34,719 nucleotides of DNA. It comes from Candidatus Nealsoniibacteriota bacterium. GTDB lineage: Bacteria; Patescibacteriota; Minisyncoccia; Minisyncoccales; PWPS01. Every line of letters begins with the position of its first letter. Positions within the stretch are counted from its first letter, which is position 1. A program made the translations under genes and the position numbers. The notes beneath the pieces are model-generated. The model worked only from the letters and a program-made list of their open reading frames with translations, was not told the DNA's origin and searched no databases. The stretch is taken from the NCBI GenBank assembly GCA_003560665.1, contig PWKK01000023.1, positions 75,698-110,416 on the forward strand, given 5' to 3'. Below are positions 3,797-21,609 of the stretch, piece by piece.

Positions 3797-4271
3797 ATGA
3801 TAAGATCAATTAAAAAAAATTTAAGTTTTTTGCAAAACAAAGTTGCGAAATATGACAATGTTTTTGTGGTTGGGCTTATTGTTTATTTTTCGTTTATAAC
3901 AATCGGAATGATTGCTTTTGCATTTTAATGCAGAGATGTTGATGGAGGCGAGGGATTACGGGAATATGGCTACAGGAACAATAGACGGAATAACGAAGCA
4001 AATAAGCATAGAAAATATCCAACACCAAAAATGGGAAAGATCAGAGATTTTATTAACCCTGCTTATAATATTACTCTTTTTAATATTTGATGAAAGTTAT
4101 TATGCACTACAAGCAATAGATTTTTTTGAACTGCAAAGATTTAACGCTTATTCTGAGATTAGCAAGGTAATGTTGGAAAAAAGAAGGTGGACTCAAAAAT
4201 ATTATGCAACAAATTATTTTTCTTGTATTTGGATAAATGATTATTTCAATTTTGAGCGTAGATTAAAATAA
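3797..4271 (+). pseudogene. Probable degenerate membrane protein / glycosyltransferase fragment
   Basis: TM-like IRSIKKN..VAKYDNVFVVGLIVYFSFITIGMIAFAF ends at TAA; the protein sense appears to continue in another frame (HFNAEMLMEARDYGNMATGTIDG). Confidence 0.45.
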
Positions 4272-5084
4272 ACAGCTTCTGCAAATTTTATAATCCATTC
4301 TTTTAGACAACAAGTTCTTTCTTGTTTTTTTAAATTTTTCTTTATTCCATATCTCTAAAATACTTTCCTTTTCTATATTCCCAAAAGAATGTTTAGAGAA
4401 GAAGTCATCTGCACAAAGAATAATATTTCCTTTATAATCTATCGTGAGCTCCACAGAAGGGAGAATACATCTCTGCTTTCTTTCTTTCTTCTTTACATTT
4501 ACAAGTCCTCCTCGTGACGAGAGTGTGTGATTTTCTATGTTTTCTTTAATGACAACATCGCTACTTTTTGTTATTTCCTTTATTTTTTCATATTTTTTTT
4601 CATTATTTTTATCGTGCAATGTTATAATAAGAAGTATGGAGAGTTCCTCCATTTTTTTCATTGTTTTTTTGTTTAAAAAATCCCCGTTTGTATAAACAAC
4701 GATTTTTGCTTTTTTTAAATTTTTTCTCGTAAAATTTATGTACTTAAATAACTCTTTTTCAAGAAGGGGCTCGTAGTAACCTGTGAAGTGCACTTCTCCA
4801 CGAAAATCTATTTTTTTAAGTTCATTTATTAATTTTCTGAAAACATTAAAATCTAATTTTTCTTGTTTTCCAAAATTAGGATATTTTGAAACGGGACAGT
4901 AGGAGCACTTTCTGTTGCAGTTCCTGCTTAGCTCAATATTTACGTGGTGGAATAAATTTTTATCCTCGTATCTTAAGAAATTTCTTGCCCTAACAGAGAA
5001 AAGAAATAAAAGTCCCAAAAGTTCTCTCATCTTATGAGGCAGCTTTCTCGATTGCCAAAAAATTATTTTATCAATAAGATTCAT
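4263..5084 (-). CDS. Radical SAM protein with SPASM-like C-terminus
   Basis: NIELSRNCNRKCSYCPVSKYPN (CxxxCxxC); C-terminal GNIILCADD..FGNI..SILEIW..CRSC. Confidence 0.9.
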   Translation of the reverse strand: MNLIDKIIFWQSRKLPHKMRELLGLLFLFSVRARNFLRYEDKNLFHHVNIELSRNCNRKCSYCPVSKYPNFGKQEKLDFNVFRKLINELKKIDFRGEVHFTGYYEPLLEKELFKYINFTRKNLKKAKIVVYTNGDFLNKKTMKKMEELSILLIITLHDKNNEKKYEKIKEITKSSDVVIKENIENHTLSSRGGLVNVKKKERKQRCILPSVELTIDYKGNIILCADDFFSKHSFGNIEKESILEIWNKEKFKKTRKNLLSKRMDYKICRSCLF

Positions 5085-10317: not shown

Positions 10318-11313
10318 ATGGAAAATAATTGTAACAAAATTTCAATAAACAAGATGGTTCCACCGATCAAAAAGGTGAGCTTTTTAGAAATTTTAGAAAA
10401 AAGAAAAAAGAAAAGAGAAAAAATAAAAGAAATCCAAGAAGATTTCCTCGGGTATTGCATACACGTTGGAAAAATATCCTATGGATGTCGATCGTGCTTT
10501 AAAGACTCTAAATACAACCTCTCGGAAGCATTGGGGTGGAAGTGTAACTTGAATTGTAGTTATTGTTTTTCAAATAAAAACTTAACCGAAAAAACGGAGA
10601 ATCAGATTGACGACATGATTGGGAGGCACTACCGCAACTCTCTTAACCCGGATTATGGGAAAAGAGGCCCAACAGGATTTGCCTTTACAATGGGAGAACC
10701 ACTGCTCTACATGAAAAGAATGGAGAAGTATATGTATCATCTCAAGGAGATTGAGAAAAGAACCGGCAACAGGCCTTATTATAAGCTCTACACAAACGGA
10801 GTTTTAGCGACAAAGAAAACTTTAAAAAAGTTAAAAGAAATCGGAATAGATGAGATAAGGTTTCATCCGAGTGCTTCTAATTTTTCTGCGAAGGTTTATA
10901 AAAACATGGAGGAGGCGGTAAAGACTGGTTTTATCGTTGCTGTTGAAGAGCCTTGCTGGCCCAAAAACAGAAAAAAACTCTTTGAAATGCTTCCGATAAT
11001 AGATAAAATAGGAGTAAAACATTTGCAGATGTGTATCGTTGAGGTGTACGATTATAATATTGCAGAAATCTATAAGGACTATCCAAGCGGTTTGTTTTTT
11101 CACGACAATTTACTTCATATGTATGACGAAGGTTTGGTTTATGATATAATGGAAAAAGTGTTAAAGAAAAAGTATAAATTTTCAGTATTAGACTGTAGTA
11201 ACGAGGTACACAGACATAACCGTTCTCAATCAAGGAAAGTGGTGGAGGCGTGCGAAAAAGAAGAGGGAGAAAAAGTTTTTTTTAATCCATGGAAAGAGGG
11301 AATTATTAAATAA
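10318..11313 (+). CDS. Radical SAM protein with extra N-terminal Cys cluster
   Basis: LGWKCNLNCSYCFSNKN (CxxxCxxC) preceded by GYCIHVGKISYGCRSCFKD; FTMGEPLLY and LYTNG motifs. Confidence 0.88.
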   Translation: MENNCNKISINKMVPPIKKVSFLEILEKRKKKREKIKEIQEDFLGYCIHVGKISYGCRSCFKDSKYNLSEALGWKCNLNCSYCFSNKNLTEKTENQIDDMIGRHYRNSLNPDYGKRGPTGFAFTMGEPLLYMKRMEKYMYHLKEIEKRTGNRPYYKLYTNGVLATKKTLKKLKEIGIDEIRFHPSASNFSAKVYKNMEEAVKTGFIVAVEEPCWPKNRKKLFEMLPIIDKIGVKHLQMCIVEVYDYNIAEIYKDYPSGLFFHDNLLHMYDEGLVYDIMEKVLKKKYKFSVLDCSNEVHRHNRSQSRKVVEACEKEEGEKVFFNPWKEGIIK

Positions 11314-13676: not shown

Positions 13677-13922
13677 ATGGGGAAAAAACAAAAAGAGTGT
13701 AAACATGAGTACGCACCTTTAATGGTAAAGCACAACGGGGAAGTTTTTCCTCTTGAGAAGGCAAATTTATGTATGCACTGTGGAGTAATGAAAATTGGAA
13801 CGAACACCATCAAAATCTCCAACGCACTTCTCGATATGGGACAAAAGCCGATAGAAAATGCGTCCGGCGTTTACATCAGTTCACGATTGAAAATTCCGGT
13901 GGGTAATAACATGTACGACTAA
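13677..13922 (+). CDS. 81-aa protein with Cys/His pairs (possible metal-binding)
   Basis: ECKHE...NLCMHCG; tightly packed in operon, ends immediately before the next ORF. Confidence 0.65.
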   Translation: MGKKQKECKHEYAPLMVKHNGEVFPLEKANLCMHCGVMKIGTNTIKISNALLDMGQKPIENASGVYISSRLKIPVGNNMYD

Positions 13923-13923
13923 A

Positions 13924-14697
13924 ATGGTTGAAAGTTTTGTAAGGTTAATGCCTAAGCAGGGTTTTCAGGAGTGGCCGTCTTTAATGGGAGATATGGCCGA
14001 GCTTTGCAGAGAAACAGAGTACAGATTGGTAAAAGATGGCTATAGAAAAGCAACAACACTGCACATTGAAGATAGAAATTATAAGGAGTTAATGGAAAGA
14101 ATTAACAAGGATGGGTTGATTTATACTCCCATCTTAAAAGCGGCTTATTCTGAAGGATTTATTCACGAACACAAAGAAGCAAAAGAAGGTGAACCTTTCT
14201 ACTGGTATGGTTGTGTAACAAAAACGTATAAAGAAGGGCAAGAATTTAAGAAAGCAGATGGAAGTGCCGAGCAAAAAAAACCGAATCACATTAAGCTTGG
14301 AAAATTGCTTGGATATCCCGAGTGTTGTATAGATTATTTTAACAAAAAATTTCCTCAAAACTGGGACCCCATCTGGATTGAAAAGTCGGGAAGGGTGTGT
14401 GGTTATCCGGAGTGTAATAGACTTTTAAGGTATTTTGGCGTTCACATCACATGGCATTTCAGCTGTTCTCCTGTTTGCGAGAAAACAAAAGAAGAAGGAA
14501 AAAAATGGTTTTCTGTGATGAAAGAAATGGACAAAGAGTTGGCGGAGAAAATATATAACTTACTTAGTAAAAGTATGACGTGGGATAGTTATCATGGGGT
14601 TGTGCAGATTGAAACACCCTATTTTGTGGGACTTTCGCGAACATTCCCTTATTTAGAAAAAAAGAGAGTTATTAATTGGGAGGTAAAAAAGAAATAA
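13924..14697 (+). CDS. Cys-rich protein of uncertain family (DUF483-like LGYPECC motif)
   Basis: LGKLLGYPECCIDYFNKKF...VCGYPECNRLLRYFGVHITWHFSCSPVC; 257 aa between the 81-aa ORF and the radical SAM gene. Confidence 0.65.
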   Translation: MVESFVRLMPKQGFQEWPSLMGDMAELCRETEYRLVKDGYRKATTLHIEDRNYKELMERINKDGLIYTPILKAAYSEGFIHEHKEAKEGEPFYWYGCVTKTYKEGQEFKKADGSAEQKKPNHIKLGKLLGYPECCIDYFNKKFPQNWDPIWIEKSGRVCGYPECNRLLRYFGVHITWHFSCSPVCEKTKEEGKKWFSVMKEMDKELAEKIYNLLSKSMTWDSYHGVVQIETPYFVGLSRTFPYLEKKRVINWEVKKK

Positions 14698-14700
14698 AAA

Positions 14701-15831
14701 ATGGGACTTTTAGTAAAACCATATTTGGGGTGTAATATAAAATGTAAGTACTGTTACGAGGGACCGTTGAGAAATGTCAAAGAACCACAGCTTGACTATG
14801 ACCTAGATGCAGTAGTTAATACTATCAGGGAGAATAAAAAGACGGCTCCCAGTATCGGTCTTCACGGAGGAGAGATTTTTTGTATTCCCAACAAACACTT
14901 GGAAATTCTTCTAAAAGAAACCTATAAATATGGAGAATCGGTGGGTATTCAGACTAACGCAACCCTTATTGATGATGAAAAAATAAGACTCCTTAAGAAA
15001 TATAACGCTAATTTGGGAATTTCTTGGGATGGTCCGGGCGAGCTTTGTAGTGCAAGACCAGGAACGGAAAAAGTGGGAGAAATCATAGACAAGGTAATGA
15101 GCAAAGGGATAAGTGTGGGAATGATAATAGTAGTTTCCGAGGCAAATGCCGGGACAAAGGCAAAAAGAGAAAAATTAAAGAAGTGGGTTTACAAATTAAG
15201 CAAAGAAAAAGGAATCGATGCACGATTTAATCCGTGTTATAATGACAAGGAGTTAGAGTTATCTCCAAAAAAGAGAGTGAGCGTTTATCTTGATTTTGCC
15301 AAGTTTTTTCTTGAGAATGATATAAGGTGGAGCCCCTTTACCGACATTATAAGAGCACTTCAAAATAGCAAAAATAAGGTTTGTACATTTAGCGGTTGTG
15401 ATATTTTCTGTACTAAATCAGCGACATCTGTGATGGGAGATGGGAGTATTACAAACTGTATGAGGACAAATGAAGAGTTTATTTTACTTAGAGATAAAAA
15501 AGAGTATGATACACGTTTAGAGATATTAAGAGAAACACCGATTAAATATGGAGGGTGCAAAGGATGTAAGTACTTGGAAATGTGCACAGGGGGGTGTCCT
15601 ACAGCAACGATTGATGATGATTGGAGAAACAGAACTTCGTGGTGTGACGTCTGGTATGCACTTTTTCAGTATTTTGAAAATGTGTTAAAAATGACAGAAA
15701 ATGAACAGCTTTATTCTAGAGATAAAAAGGGTGACGAGAAAGAAAAAAAGGAGATACACTCTCATGAGGATCAAACAAAACCCGGTGGACACGGCGATTA
15801 TTCTGCACATATTAATAAATTAAAAGAATAA
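14701..15831 (+). CDS. Radical SAM/SPASM-domain peptide-maturase-like enzyme
   Basis: GCNIKCKYCYEG (CxxxCxxC), LHGGEIF, IQTNATL; SPASM cysteines CTKS..ITNCMR..GGCKGCKYLEMCTGGCP...WC; His-rich tail HSHEDQTKPGGHGDYSAH. Confidence 0.92.
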   Translation: MGLLVKPYLGCNIKCKYCYEGPLRNVKEPQLDYDLDAVVNTIRENKKTAPSIGLHGGEIFCIPNKHLEILLKETYKYGESVGIQTNATLIDDEKIRLLKKYNANLGISWDGPGELCSARPGTEKVGEIIDKVMSKGISVGMIIVVSEANAGTKAKREKLKKWVYKLSKEKGIDARFNPCYNDKELELSPKKRVSVYLDFAKFFLENDIRWSPFTDIIRALQNSKNKVCTFSGCDIFCTKSATSVMGDGSITNCMRTNEEFILLRDKKEYDTRLEILRETPIKYGGCKGCKYLEMCTGGCPTATIDDDWRNRTSWCDVWYALFQYFENVLKMTENEQLYSRDKKGDEKEKKEIHSHEDQTKPGGHGDYSAHINKLKE

Positions 15832-15835
15832 TAAT

Positions 15836-16432
15836 ATGGGTGAACAAGGTCATATTTGGGTAGAGGGCACGAATCTTTTTTTTATAGATACAGCGGGTGC
15901 GAAAAAAGGCGCGACTGGTACGGCGACTGGTAATTCTGGTTCCCCGGGGTATATGTGGATATTGGGAGATTATATATATTATACCGATCAAAATGGGGAT
16001 GAGAGATATCTAAGTAATATAAACAAACCAGGAGGCAGTGGGTCGCCCACTGGACAACAGTGGTTGCAGGCAGATAGCGATTACATCCGTTATATCGGCG
16101 GTGGTGGTGCCGTGACGGAGTGGTATCATGCTGATCACGGGAACTCGCATTCAGACGACCATCCTAATGTACATACGAATACTCATAACGACAACCACCC
16201 TAATACACATACAAACACTCATGGCAACCACAGCGATCACGCCAACTGGCACGGTGATACATTTGGGGCTGTAGTTGGTTGCCATACGGATAATCACACC
16301 AACACTAACCCACACAGTAACACCGTCCACCACAGCGACCATAGCGACAGCCATACCAATACGGTCACTCACTCTGATCACGCTAACGAGCATACCAACC
16401 ACCATGGTGATACACATGGTGACACTTTGTGA
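15836..16432 (+). CDS. His-rich repeat protein (candidate substrate/precursor of the adjacent radical SAM enzyme)
   Basis: N-terminal W/Y repeats (HIWVEGTNLFFIDTAG / YMWILGDYIYYTDQNG / QWLQADSDYIRYIGG), then H-x(1-3)-H-rich tail (HPNVHTNTHNDNHPNTHTNTHGNHSDHANWHGD...). Start is 5 nt after the radical SAM ORF ends. Confidence 0.8.
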   Translation: MGEQGHIWVEGTNLFFIDTAGAKKGATGTATGNSGSPGYMWILGDYIYYTDQNGDERYLSNINKPGGSGSPTGQQWLQADSDYIRYIGGGGAVTEWYHADHGNSHSDDHPNVHTNTHNDNHPNTHTNTHGNHSDHANWHGDTFGAVVGCHTDNHTNTNPHSNTVHHSDHSDSHTNTVTHSDHANEHTNHHGDTHGDTL

Positions 16433-16796: not shown

Positions 16797-16817
16797 TTAG
16801 ATAGAATTGCTATCTAA
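16797..16817. repeat. Perfect 8-bp inverted repeat overlapping the RT stop codon
   Basis: TTAGATAG-AATTG-CTATCTAA; the RT TAG is within the 3' (plus-strand) arm. Confidence 0.7.
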
Positions 16818-18010
16818 TGGGGTGAAATAAAACCTTTAATTTTTTCAATCAAGGAGGTTTGCTGGTTTTTCTCTATTTTGGAAATTCTTTTTTCTAATTC
16901 TTTCATTGAGTTTGTTATTGATTTTATTTCTTTTAAAATTATTTTTTGCTCGTAATAGTGGGATTCTTCTTTTAATTCTCTTAATGAATAATAGGTATTC
17001 GATTTACAGCTTTTGCCTCTTTTTTTCCGTTCTTTTTTTCTTTTAAGGCTCTTATTTTTGTCATATTTTTGTTTTATGGAAGAAAGTGACTTTAGTCCCA
17101 TTTCTTTTTCAAGGATGGAGTTTGTGAGAAATATATTTCCTTCTCTCATTTTACTATCTCTATTTCTCGTGATGTATCTTCTTAATCTCATTCTGATAAA
17201 GGCATCGACATCTTTAAACTCTCTCATGCAACTTGCATGCTTGTAATAGTTACCGAATCCTAAAATTTGATTATTTAATAACTTTATCACCACTTTTTTC
17301 GGCTTTTTCTTTGTAAGATGAGTTATTTTAATAATCCTTTGTCTAAACTCTTTAGCCTTCTTTTCGGAGATTCTGAAATAATTTGAATAGAATTCAAAGC
17401 CAATGAAACTAACTCTATTTTGATGAAATTTTCCAGAACTTAACTTTTTTTCATTTATTTCCAGCTTTAATTCTTGAAGTTTTGGAGTAATGATGTTTTT
17501 AAGAAATTGTTCAGGCTCTTTTTTATTTTTGCAGAGAATTAAATAATCATCAACTTTTCTTAAAAAAGGATTCTTGATTTCAGTATCCAGATTTAAAAGG
17601 AAAATTCCCGCTAAAATGTATGATAGTCGGGAACCGATAGATAGCCCCTTTTTATAGGGAGATTTTTCAAGAAAAATGGGGATTTCTTTTTATAAATATT
17701 TTTTAAATTTTCTTGATGGGTGGGTGTTTATTAGCTTTTGATATGTAACAGGGAGTGTACTAAGTAATACTTGATGATCTATAGAGGGGAAATATTTTTT
17801 AATATCAAAACTAAGAAAATAAGGGTGTGTCCTAGAGGTTTCTTGGATAAATTTCAAATTTTCTTTAGGAATATGTTGAATTAAGTAGTGTTGGGGAGCA
17901 AAGTTCCTTATTTTTGGCCTGAATTTACGCAAAAGAAAATCAGAAACCTCTTTTTCTTTTGTATTTTGAGTAGCATTAAAATAGGGGAGTTGATTTGTTT
18001 TTCTGCTCAT
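16814..18010 (-). pseudogene. Reverse transcriptase (DGR-like/group II-like), interrupted by one in-frame TAA
   Basis: Same frame throughout: FLSFDIKKYFPSIDHQVLL ... TAA (17690-17692) ... GLSIGSRLSYILAGIFLLNLD, FLRKVDDYLILC (xxDD), LELKLEI-type region, FIGFEFYSNYFRIS, then LNNQILGFGNYYKHASCMREFKDVDAFIRMRLRRYI (maturase-like) and a charged coiled-coil tail. Confidence 0.8.
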
Positions 18011-19193: not shown

Positions 19194-20294
19194 ATGGCGG
19201 GTAAAAACTTTAGACCAAAAAGGCTCCACGTTCAGTGGCACATCACGGATAAGTGCAATCTTAACTGTAAGCACTGTTATAAAGACCCCGAATTAGAGAA
19301 AAATGAGGTTTCTTTTGCTGATTTAAAAATAATTTTAGAGGATTATATAAAGCAGCTTGAAAAGTGGGAGATAAACAAGGGTAGTATATCTTTTATGGGG
19401 GGAGAGCCTTTTGCGAGAAGCGACTTCTTTGATCTTTTAAAAGAGTGTCAGAAGTATTCGGAAAAAATAAATTATAGACTTTCTAGTAATGGGACACCGA
19501 TAAATAAAAAAACTGCCCGGAAGTTAAAAGAAGTGGGAATTACTAGTGTGCAGATTAGCTTAGAGGGAAGAGAAGAAGTAAATGACAGCATTAGGGGAAA
19601 AGGTGTTTTTAAAAGAGCGATAAAAGGAGTTAAAAATTTAAGAAAAGAAAATATTGGGGTGTCACTTTCCGTTACCGTTTGTAAGCAAAATATCAAAGAA
19701 GTTCCTCACATGATAAAATTAGCTCAAAAGCTAGATATTGGAGGAATTGGTTTTCGGAGAATTGTCCCTCTTGGAAATAGTCAAAATGCGAAAAATTTTC
19801 TTCTTTCTCCAAATGAGACAAAGGATTTTTACAAGTTACTGCTAAAGGAAGAAAAGAAAACAGGAATGAATTTAACGGGGGCATGTGAAATGGGAGTTGT
19901 TGCGCAAGAGGAAAAAGTACATATGGGGTGCCCTGTCGGGTTCAATGCTTTTATAATTATGCCTGATGGGGCCGTGCTCCCTTGCAGAAGATTACCTGTT
20001 TATGCGGGAAATGTACTAAAAGATGGATTTGAAAAGATCTATTATAATTCAAAAATATTTAAAGAACTTAGAAACATTAAAAATACAAACGAGCACTGTG
20101 GGAAGTGTCCTTATTTTCTAGAATGCAGAGGAGGTGCGAAGTGTATTAATTATGCGTATTATGGGAATGCTTTTAATCCGGATCCACAGTGCTGGAGAGC
20201 CTTTAAGCAGATTCCACCAAAAAAATTAAAAGTAAAAAAAGCAGAAAAGATAGAAAAAGAGAAGAGCAATAAGTGGATTCTGTCTAAAAAATAA
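19194..20294 (+). CDS. Radical SAM/SPASM protein
   Basis: VQWHITDKCNLNCKHCYKDPE, SFMGGEPF, LSSNGTP; SPASM CPVGFNAFIIMPDGAVLPCRRLP...HCGKCPYFLECRGGAKC. Confidence 0.93.
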   Translation: MAGKNFRPKRLHVQWHITDKCNLNCKHCYKDPELEKNEVSFADLKIILEDYIKQLEKWEINKGSISFMGGEPFARSDFFDLLKECQKYSEKINYRLSSNGTPINKKTARKLKEVGITSVQISLEGREEVNDSIRGKGVFKRAIKGVKNLRKENIGVSLSVTVCKQNIKEVPHMIKLAQKLDIGGIGFRRIVPLGNSQNAKNFLLSPNETKDFYKLLLKEEKKTGMNLTGACEMGVVAQEEKVHMGCPVGFNAFIIMPDGAVLPCRRLPVYAGNVLKDGFEKIYYNSKIFKELRNIKNTNEHCGKCPYFLECRGGAKCINYAYYGNAFNPDPQCWRAFKQIPPKKLKVKKAEKIEKEKSNKWILSKK

Positions 20295-20529: not shown

Positions 20530-21609
20530 ATGAAGGGCTTTATATCCGAAAAAGAGCTTTTAAATCTTTGGGAAAAGAAACTTTCTTCAATAAGGGATGA
20601 GGAGAGTTTTAATCTATACATTGACAATCCTTTTTGTGTACAGCAGTGTGCATACTGTAAACACACGGGAAGCCTGAAAAGAGACTACGAAGATGATTTT
20701 AGTAAATATTATGAAGAAATCTTGCCAGCTCAAATAAAAATATTTTCTAGTTTACTTAAAAAGAAAATTCCCGATACGGTTTACTTTGGAGGAGGTACTC
20801 CGAGTGCGATGTCTTTTTCTCAGATGAAGAATGTTTTTAGTAGCATCCCAAACTTTAAAAAAATAAAAAAGAAAGCGTTTGAGTGTAATCCAAATCTTTT
20901 AAACAAGGAAAAGATAAAGTTGCTTATAGAAAATAATTTTACTTATGTTTCCTTTGGAATACAGTCTCTCGATAAAGATGTTTTAGATTACAATAGGCGC
21001 GATAATTATGAAAAAATACCCCTGAAAGACTATATAGGAAAGTTTGAAAAGGAAGGAGTAAGAGTAAACTGTGACTTGATGGCGTTTATCGGTGAGTATA
21101 AAGACAATCCAAGCATTGAAATAAAAAGAGTAGAGAAAGATATAGTGGGGCTTGTTAAAACCTATAGACCGAGTATGATTACTATATATCCGGAAAGTGG
21201 ATTTCTAAGAGAAGATAAAATCAGGGGAGCATATCTTTCACGAAAGCTTCGTGAAATGATTTTAAAACTAGATAAAAAGCATAACTTTGGCCATCAGGAT
21301 GAATTTTTACTAAGCTTGAATAAAGATGACATATTGCGGGGAATGGAGATTTGTTATCATCTGGGAGTTTCCCTTTCTTCGGAGGAATTAAGAGAAACGA
21401 AGAAATACGATTCTTCCGGACCACCAAACCAAAGCCCGGTTCAGAACTGTTTGGCACTCGGTGGCTTTAAACACCACCGTCCCTGGAGCTATCACGGAAG
21501 AGATTTTGTCTACCATAACCTAAACGAGGAAAATACAGGATTTAGTTATTTTATTACGGGGGAAAAAGAAAAGAAAAGACCCGTGTTTACGAACATGGAT
21601 TTTATCTAA
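20530..21609 (+). CDS. HemN-like (coproporphyrinogen III oxidase family) radical SAM protein
   Basis: LYIDNPFCVQQCAYCKH (CxxxCxxC), DTVYFGGGTPSAMS, VSFGIQSLDKDVL, VNCDLMAFIGE. Confidence 0.88.
   Translation: MKGFISEKELLNLWEKKLSSIRDEESFNLYIDNPFCVQQCAYCKHTGSLKRDYEDDFSKYYEEILPAQIKIFSSLLKKKIPDTVYFGGGTPSAMSFSQMKNVFSSIPNFKKIKKKAFECNPNLLNKEKIKLLIENNFTYVSFGIQSLDKDVLDYNRRDNYEKIPLKDYIGKFEKEGVRVNCDLMAFIGEYKDNPSIEIKRVEKDIVGLVKTYRPSMITIYPESGFLREDKIRGAYLSRKLREMILKLDKKHNFGHQDEFLLSLNKDDILRGMEICYHLGVSLSSEELRETKKYDSSGPPNQSPVQNCLALGGFKHHRPWSYHGRDFVYHNLNEENTGFSYFITGEKEKKRPVFTNMDFI

Follow-up and report, generated by a model that had tools for sequence, protein, structure and literature searches.

A radical SAM cassette shared by phage tail modules and a small bacterial genome, with a repeat protein as the candidate substrate for tandem triceptide-like cross-links

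In the triceptide (3-CyFE) systems, among them XncB, OscB/GrrM, MscB, YxdB, HaaB, YhhB and AmcB, a SPASM-type radical SAM (rSAM) enzyme adjoins a small precursor peptide with aromatic-x-x motifs, and the links run from residue i to residue i+2: Trp or Phe to Asn, Trp to Asp, Phe to Ser, Tyr to Asp, and His to Ala or Arg (PMC11002830). Other described systems share single traits with the locus reported here. The His-Xaa-Ser (HXS) proteins, served by rSAM enzymes (HxsB/HxsC), carry a His every few residues and a fixed residue at +2, in TvgA/TvgB a single rSAM acts many times over on a repeated motif to give poly-cyclopropylglycine (PMC9062424), and the tail fibres of phage T4 (gp37) and R-pyocins have HxH iron sites. 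Closest in gene content is the three-gene 'rSAM module' that Kolesnik et al. 2024 (PMC11437467) named in the Thermus phages Cumys and phiMa and in prophages, in which an rSAM, a DUF483 protein and a third protein are adjacent; that paper suggests a role in DNA modification, and a term search of its text gave no mention of histidine and, in the passages covered, neither these repeats nor a proposed substrate.

Here we describe a homologous cassette in a Candidatus Nealsoniibacteriota genome. We propose that its rSAM probably cross-links each aromatic residue of an adjoining repeat protein to the beta-carbon of the residue two positions on, stiffening a tail or surface fibre. The window, by which we mean the whole stretch of 34,719 nucleotides analysed, contains the following features:

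13677-13922, plus strand: 81-aa ORF of zinc-ribbon appearance (CxxH/CxxC), which opens the likely operon (from the ORF list)
13924-14697, plus strand: DUF483-like protein of 257 aa, third module component (Pfam DUF483, below threshold, E 2.4e-4)
14701-15831, plus strand: radical SAM/SPASM enzyme of 376 aa (Pfam Radical_SAM, E 2.7e-15)
15836-16432, plus strand: repeat protein, the proposed rSAM substrate (198-aa ORF)
Residues about 7-97 of the repeat protein: three N-terminal W..G..Y/F.D..G beta repeats
16127-16429, plus strand: H-x-[N/D] repeat tail, the proposed i to i+2 cross-link sites (rule kept by 22 of 24 His)

The repeat gene is the last of what is likely a tight operon, with gaps of 1 bp between the 81-aa ORF and the DUF483-like gene, 3 bp between the latter and the rSAM gene, and 4 bp between the rSAM and repeat genes. 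All three proteins of the Thermus phage module have homologs here: profiles built without the window recover the rSAM (E = 3.1e-82), the DUF483-like protein (E = 9.6e-43) and the N-terminal repeats (E = 1.2e-12). The order differs, being DUF483-rSAM-substrate in the window, whereas in Cumys and phiMa the baseplate genes and collar fibre are followed by the H-x-D repeat protein (P0002 and P0003), the rSAM and the DUF483 protein. AlphaFold predicts a confident fold for the DUF483-like protein (pLDDT 88.8), which matches nothing in the PDB at E <= 0.001. The 81-aa ORF has a weak match to phrog_27296 (E 3.5e-4) and no homolog at the other module loci. Directly downstream of the module, on the minus strand at 16814-18010, are pieces of the reverse transcriptase/maturase of a group II intron.

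A preliminary description of this DNA had pointed out an ORF with a His-rich tail and W/Y repeats, and both are real. The three N-terminal units read W-V-E-G...F-I-D-T-A-G, W-I-L-G...Y-T-D-Q-N-G and W-L-Q-A...Y-I-G-G-G, and the profile search proposed there for these repeats showed them to be homologous to the repeat domain of phage proteins. AlphaFold places confident beta strands in the first two of them and leaves the unmodified tail without structure, with pLDDT below 50 over most of its length. This prediction, together with the variable repeat spacing, disfavours the beta-solenoid suggested earlier for the tail. A fold search of the model against the PDB gave weak matches (E >= 0.07), the first few being choline- and glucan-binding beta-hairpin repeats. 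Scans of the protein against Pfam, NCBIfam and PHROGs returned no match, and a sequence-only search found no close relative among the 60 related genomes, nor in phages or viral contigs.

The tail (residues from about 98-101 to 198) obeys a simple rule. Asn or Asp stands at +2 for 22 of its 24 His, the two exceptions being the first His of HH doublets, and at other offsets the proportion is 4-61%; shuffled tails held 6.5 such His on average and at most 14, and 22 was reached in 0 of 20,000 shuffles. The protein has 12 HxN and 11 HxD motifs. H-x-H, previously named as the dominant motif, does not occur in it at all, and the invariant is H-x-[N/D]. Successive His are irregularly spaced (1, 3, 4, 5, 6 or 11 residues, mostly 3-6). 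The tail His are encoded by 12 CAC and 12 CAT codons and the remaining codons are likewise mixed, which indicates that the tail is not a fresh DNA repeat; judging from the sequence, the rule is maintained at the protein level. The mid-tail Cys singled out earlier is present as the only Cys of the tail, but it falls in no conserved alignment column. That the tail is not a standard His-Xaa-Ser repeat was seen correctly: HXS proteins have a strict period of 3 with Ser, whereas here the spacing varies and Asn or Asp takes the +2 position. Canonical HXS membership was set aside, the similarity of the rSAM to those of HXS loci in related genomes being remote and generic (E 1e-6 to 1e-7). The best 25 of the 52 NCBIfam matches of the window rSAM (E <= 0.05) include no HxsB/HxsC model.

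Relatives were sought in viral contigs with a degenerate DNA pattern of five H-x-[N/D]-x units, the matches then being read in frame. Most of the output was chance, frame-shifted simple repeats, and real phage proteins were picked out by their reading frames. Two of them (L077, L083) combine W/Y repeats with H-x-D tails, each directly 5' of a gene for a window-like rSAM, and a search with rSAMs of this type led to the Thermus phages Cumys, phiMa and phiLo. An rSAM-based search that made no use of the repeat yielded 17 bacterial loci (17 species) and 49 viral loci, and these 66 rSAMs stand well apart from others; the controls were 63 loci of unrelated rSAMs that came out of that scan. ORFs with 8 or more H-x-[D/N] in 100 aa lie within the flanks covered at 53 of the 66 module loci against 0 of 63 controls (Fisher 3e-24), at 31 of 42 against 0 of 63 once near-copies are removed (P 1e-17), and in 10 of 17 bacterial species taken alone (P 1e-8). 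The N-terminal repeat domain occurs at 44 of 72 module loci (0 of 63 controls), and a DUF483-like protein adjoins 66 of 72 module rSAMs (2 of 63 controls); in three ORFs (L163, L167, L173) the rSAM and DUF483-like regions are fused. Together with the rSAM gene 4 bp upstream, this conserved association of rSAM, repeat protein and DUF483 protein in phages and bacteria strongly supports the substrate role that had been one of several earlier suggestions. Against it, 11 of the 42 non-redundant loci have no HxD/N-rich ORF at this threshold; loci of this kind include one with a Phe version (L268), some that are truncated and some that are cellular (e.g. L162, L164, L174). Likewise, a few HxD-rich viral proteins (L060, L111) have no rSAM in the contig sequence covered. 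Among tail-module control loci found with a J-like fibre query, HxD proteins were present in 0 of 12 others and only in the query's own contig.

The window rSAM has a CNIKCKYC core, multiple auxiliary-cluster Cys and a SPASM-type Cys pattern, and in a tree it falls within the module clade (support 100/95) on a long branch. The clade is uncatalogued. The best NCBIfam scores of the window enzyme, AmcB at 65.7 bits (cut-off 425), YhhB at 44.9 (445) and GrrM at 41.5 (310), are far below every cut-off and thus place it in no known 3-CyFE family, and all 35 module rSAMs scanned match AmcB and YhhB (cyclophane makers), DynA (dynobactin) and sulfatase maturase, each below threshold. With sulfatase maturase among the nearest models and no cut-off reached, sequence alone does not tell which reaction is catalysed. 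The window enzyme itself ends in a short tail containing HxD (HGDYSAH), and 35 of 72 module rSAMs have a C-terminal H-x-D tail of their own (e.g. P0004, P0006, L240, L267) against 0 of 63 controls; these tails may reflect self-modification or substrate mimicry.

What favours a particular chemistry is the behaviour of the motif across relatives. Of the 1,293 His counted in the repeats of non-redundant substrates, 99% are followed at +2 by Asp or Asn. These segments are partly selected by motif, so the less biased figure comes from the C-terminal tails of the module rSAMs, which were not motif-chosen, with 61% at +2 against 6-23% at other offsets. The aromatic residue changes while the +2 residue is kept: L268 has F-x-[N/Q/S/D] almost throughout, with Phe in place of nearly all His, L263 interchanges HTD with FTN or FSN inside one array, and L159, L258 and L260 mix Tyr with His. 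Positions 1 and 3 of the motif covary, His preferring Asp and Phe preferring Asn (odds ratio 21). An aromatic i to i+2 motif in which His, Phe and Tyr replace one another is that of three-residue cyclophanes rather than of a metal ladder. As in triceptides, a SPASM rSAM stands next to a protein with aromatic-x-x motifs, Asn and Asp are among the +2 residues of known links (Asn/Asp/Ser/Ala/Arg; PMC11002830) and the motif alone agrees with triceptide substrates; the similarity of the rSAM is below threshold. The systems differ in that the proposed substrate here is long and repetitive, begins with a domain of beta repeats and is found in phage tail modules and cellular loci, in that there is an additional DUF483 partner, and in that His-Asp and His-Asn pairs are not among the links in PMC11002830. 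The TvgA/TvgB reaction, by comparison, makes a Val-internal cyclopropane on a TVGG peptide with no aromatic motif.

From these observations we infer that the rSAM modifies the repeat protein, by cyclophane chemistry, with a part for the DUF483 protein and a mechanical role for the product. In the proposed mechanism the radical SAM/SPASM enzyme of the adjoining upstream gene would be a maturase dedicated to the repeat protein, aided by the DUF483-like protein. The enzyme would remove a beta-hydrogen from the Asn or Asp two residues past each His and link the beta-carbon to the imidazole ring. The tail would thereby come to hold many tandem His-x-Asn/Asp three-residue cyclophanes of triceptide type, dozens of small rings per protein; in relatives Phe or Tyr may be the ring residue. 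The modified tail would be a stiff, protease-resistant rod anchored by the N-terminal beta repeats. A different outcome of the same enzyme-substrate pairing, such as Asn/Asp beta-hydroxylation or epimerisation, an ether link, or methylation, seems unlikely. The rSAM-substrate association would suit it too, the nearest models include an oxidising sulfatase maturase and daropeptide and dynobactin enzymes, and many DUF483-like homologs carry a methyltransferase domain. Yet the window DUF483-like protein has no such domain, and modification of a single residue predicts neither that the aromatic residue be as strictly required as the +2 residue nor that the two covary.

The genomic setting suggests where cross-linked proteins would act. 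Many partner proteins share the three N-terminal W..G..Y.D..G repeats of the window protein, several of them in phage tail modules. A prophage (L159) has the order baseplate, substrate, rSAM, DUF483, endolysin, integrase; in L240 the substrate directly follows a lambda-J-like tail fibre, and in L246 the HxD/N protein has a collagen-like fibre match. Cellular H-x-D proteins adjoining a module rSAM (L160 5057-6001; L170 79-858) have N-termini that, from their sequence, look like export signals, which suggests non-phage uses. A stiff tail or surface fibre is thus, in our reading, the likeliest role of the substrate: most relatives would be phage tail or baseplate appendages, and the window copy and those of some other cellular genomes chromosomal. 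We found no phage structural genes among the window proteins scanned, so the tail role may not apply to the window copy. A search of 246 further genomes of the order found no module rSAM, and congeners lack the two neighbouring window genes that were tested; the locus has the look of an accessory island acquired by a small bacterial genome. A type IV pilus locus and a missing archaeal RPB10 suggest a bacterial host, while no ribosomal RNA turned up. There is a minor chance that the cassette is left over from a phage and is decaying or idle, with homology but no function here, as its chromosomal isolation, its rarity in the order, the long branch of its rSAM and the adjoining intron fragments would allow. 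Against this, all three ORFs are open and tightly packed, the rSAM retains its catalytic and auxiliary Cys, and 22 of the 24 motifs are intact in mixed codons.

It is improbable that the tail is instead part of a fibre that binds metal (Fe/Zn/Ni) as phage tail fibres do at their His sites, with the rSAM incidental or acting elsewhere. His, Asp and Asn are metal ligands, and phage fibres and spikes do bind iron via HxH (PMC6116203), but the window protein has no HxH and irregular spacing, the association with rSAM and DUF483 is very strong, and in L268 Phe replaces His with the +2 rule kept, which argues against metal ligation as the shared function; the spacing, the missing HxH and the Phe version likewise disfavour metal binding through His spacing, another earlier suggestion. 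Modification of DNA by the three-gene module, the role suggested by Kolesnik et al. 2024, where rSAM and DUF483 homologs are reported near deazapurine DNA-modification genes in cyanobacteria (PMC11437467), is very improbable given that a repeat protein is the partner at most loci, in tail modules, that the rSAM is nearest to peptide-modifying SPASM enzymes, and that the repeat motifs recur in its own C-terminal tail.

Returning to cross-linking, both the repeat substrate and the cyclophane prediction appear to be new for the module noted in Thermus phages in 2024, and by inference a new rSAM family here applies triceptide-like chemistry to a structural repeat protein. Searches of the open literature, with subscription papers mostly outside coverage, gave no report of an rSAM-modified phage tail protein. 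The chances seem evenly balanced that these proteins form a widespread class of phage-tail and bacterial-surface fibres whose chains each hold up to about 100 tandem cyclophanes (His-Asp, His-Asn, Phe-Asn, Tyr-Asp) introduced by a new family of rSAMs and their DUF483 helper, and in which the triceptide reaction serves as a structural protein modification. If so, radical cross-linking, so far known from small ribosomal peptides, would also contribute to the building of virus particles and perhaps of fibres on bacterial surfaces; His-Asp and His-Asn, with Phe-Asn and Tyr-Asp, would become new targets in enzyme chemistry, and repeat polymers of great stiffness and stability would come within reach. 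A phage module with a guessed role in DNA modification would gain a concrete, testable substrate, and the Thermus phages Cumys and phiMa are culturable.

Several further loci deserve mention. In phiLo 4 kb separate the H-x-D protein (L157 12807-14231, minus strand) from its rSAM, which is encoded on the opposite strand, yet a portion of the repeat shares 57% identity with the Cumys one. One viral contig (L111 1-2429, minus strand) encodes two adjoining proteins with 58 and 23 H-x-D motifs and no rSAM within the 13.7 kb covered. Canonical-looking His-x-Ser proteins stand beside several rSAM genes in related genomes (G030:C7, L026 8557-9520; G033:C4, L027 1506-3086; G008:C13, L028 6407-7702), those of L027 and L028 sharing a C-terminal WNGQKFVLENNILPQSE-type domain. 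The 35 kb window itself holds unusually many radical SAM genes (341-1756, 4263-5084, 10318-11313, 19194-20294 and 20530-21609); a copy of the gene at 10318, with 61% identity and an in-frame stop, lies at G000:C1:126858-127805.
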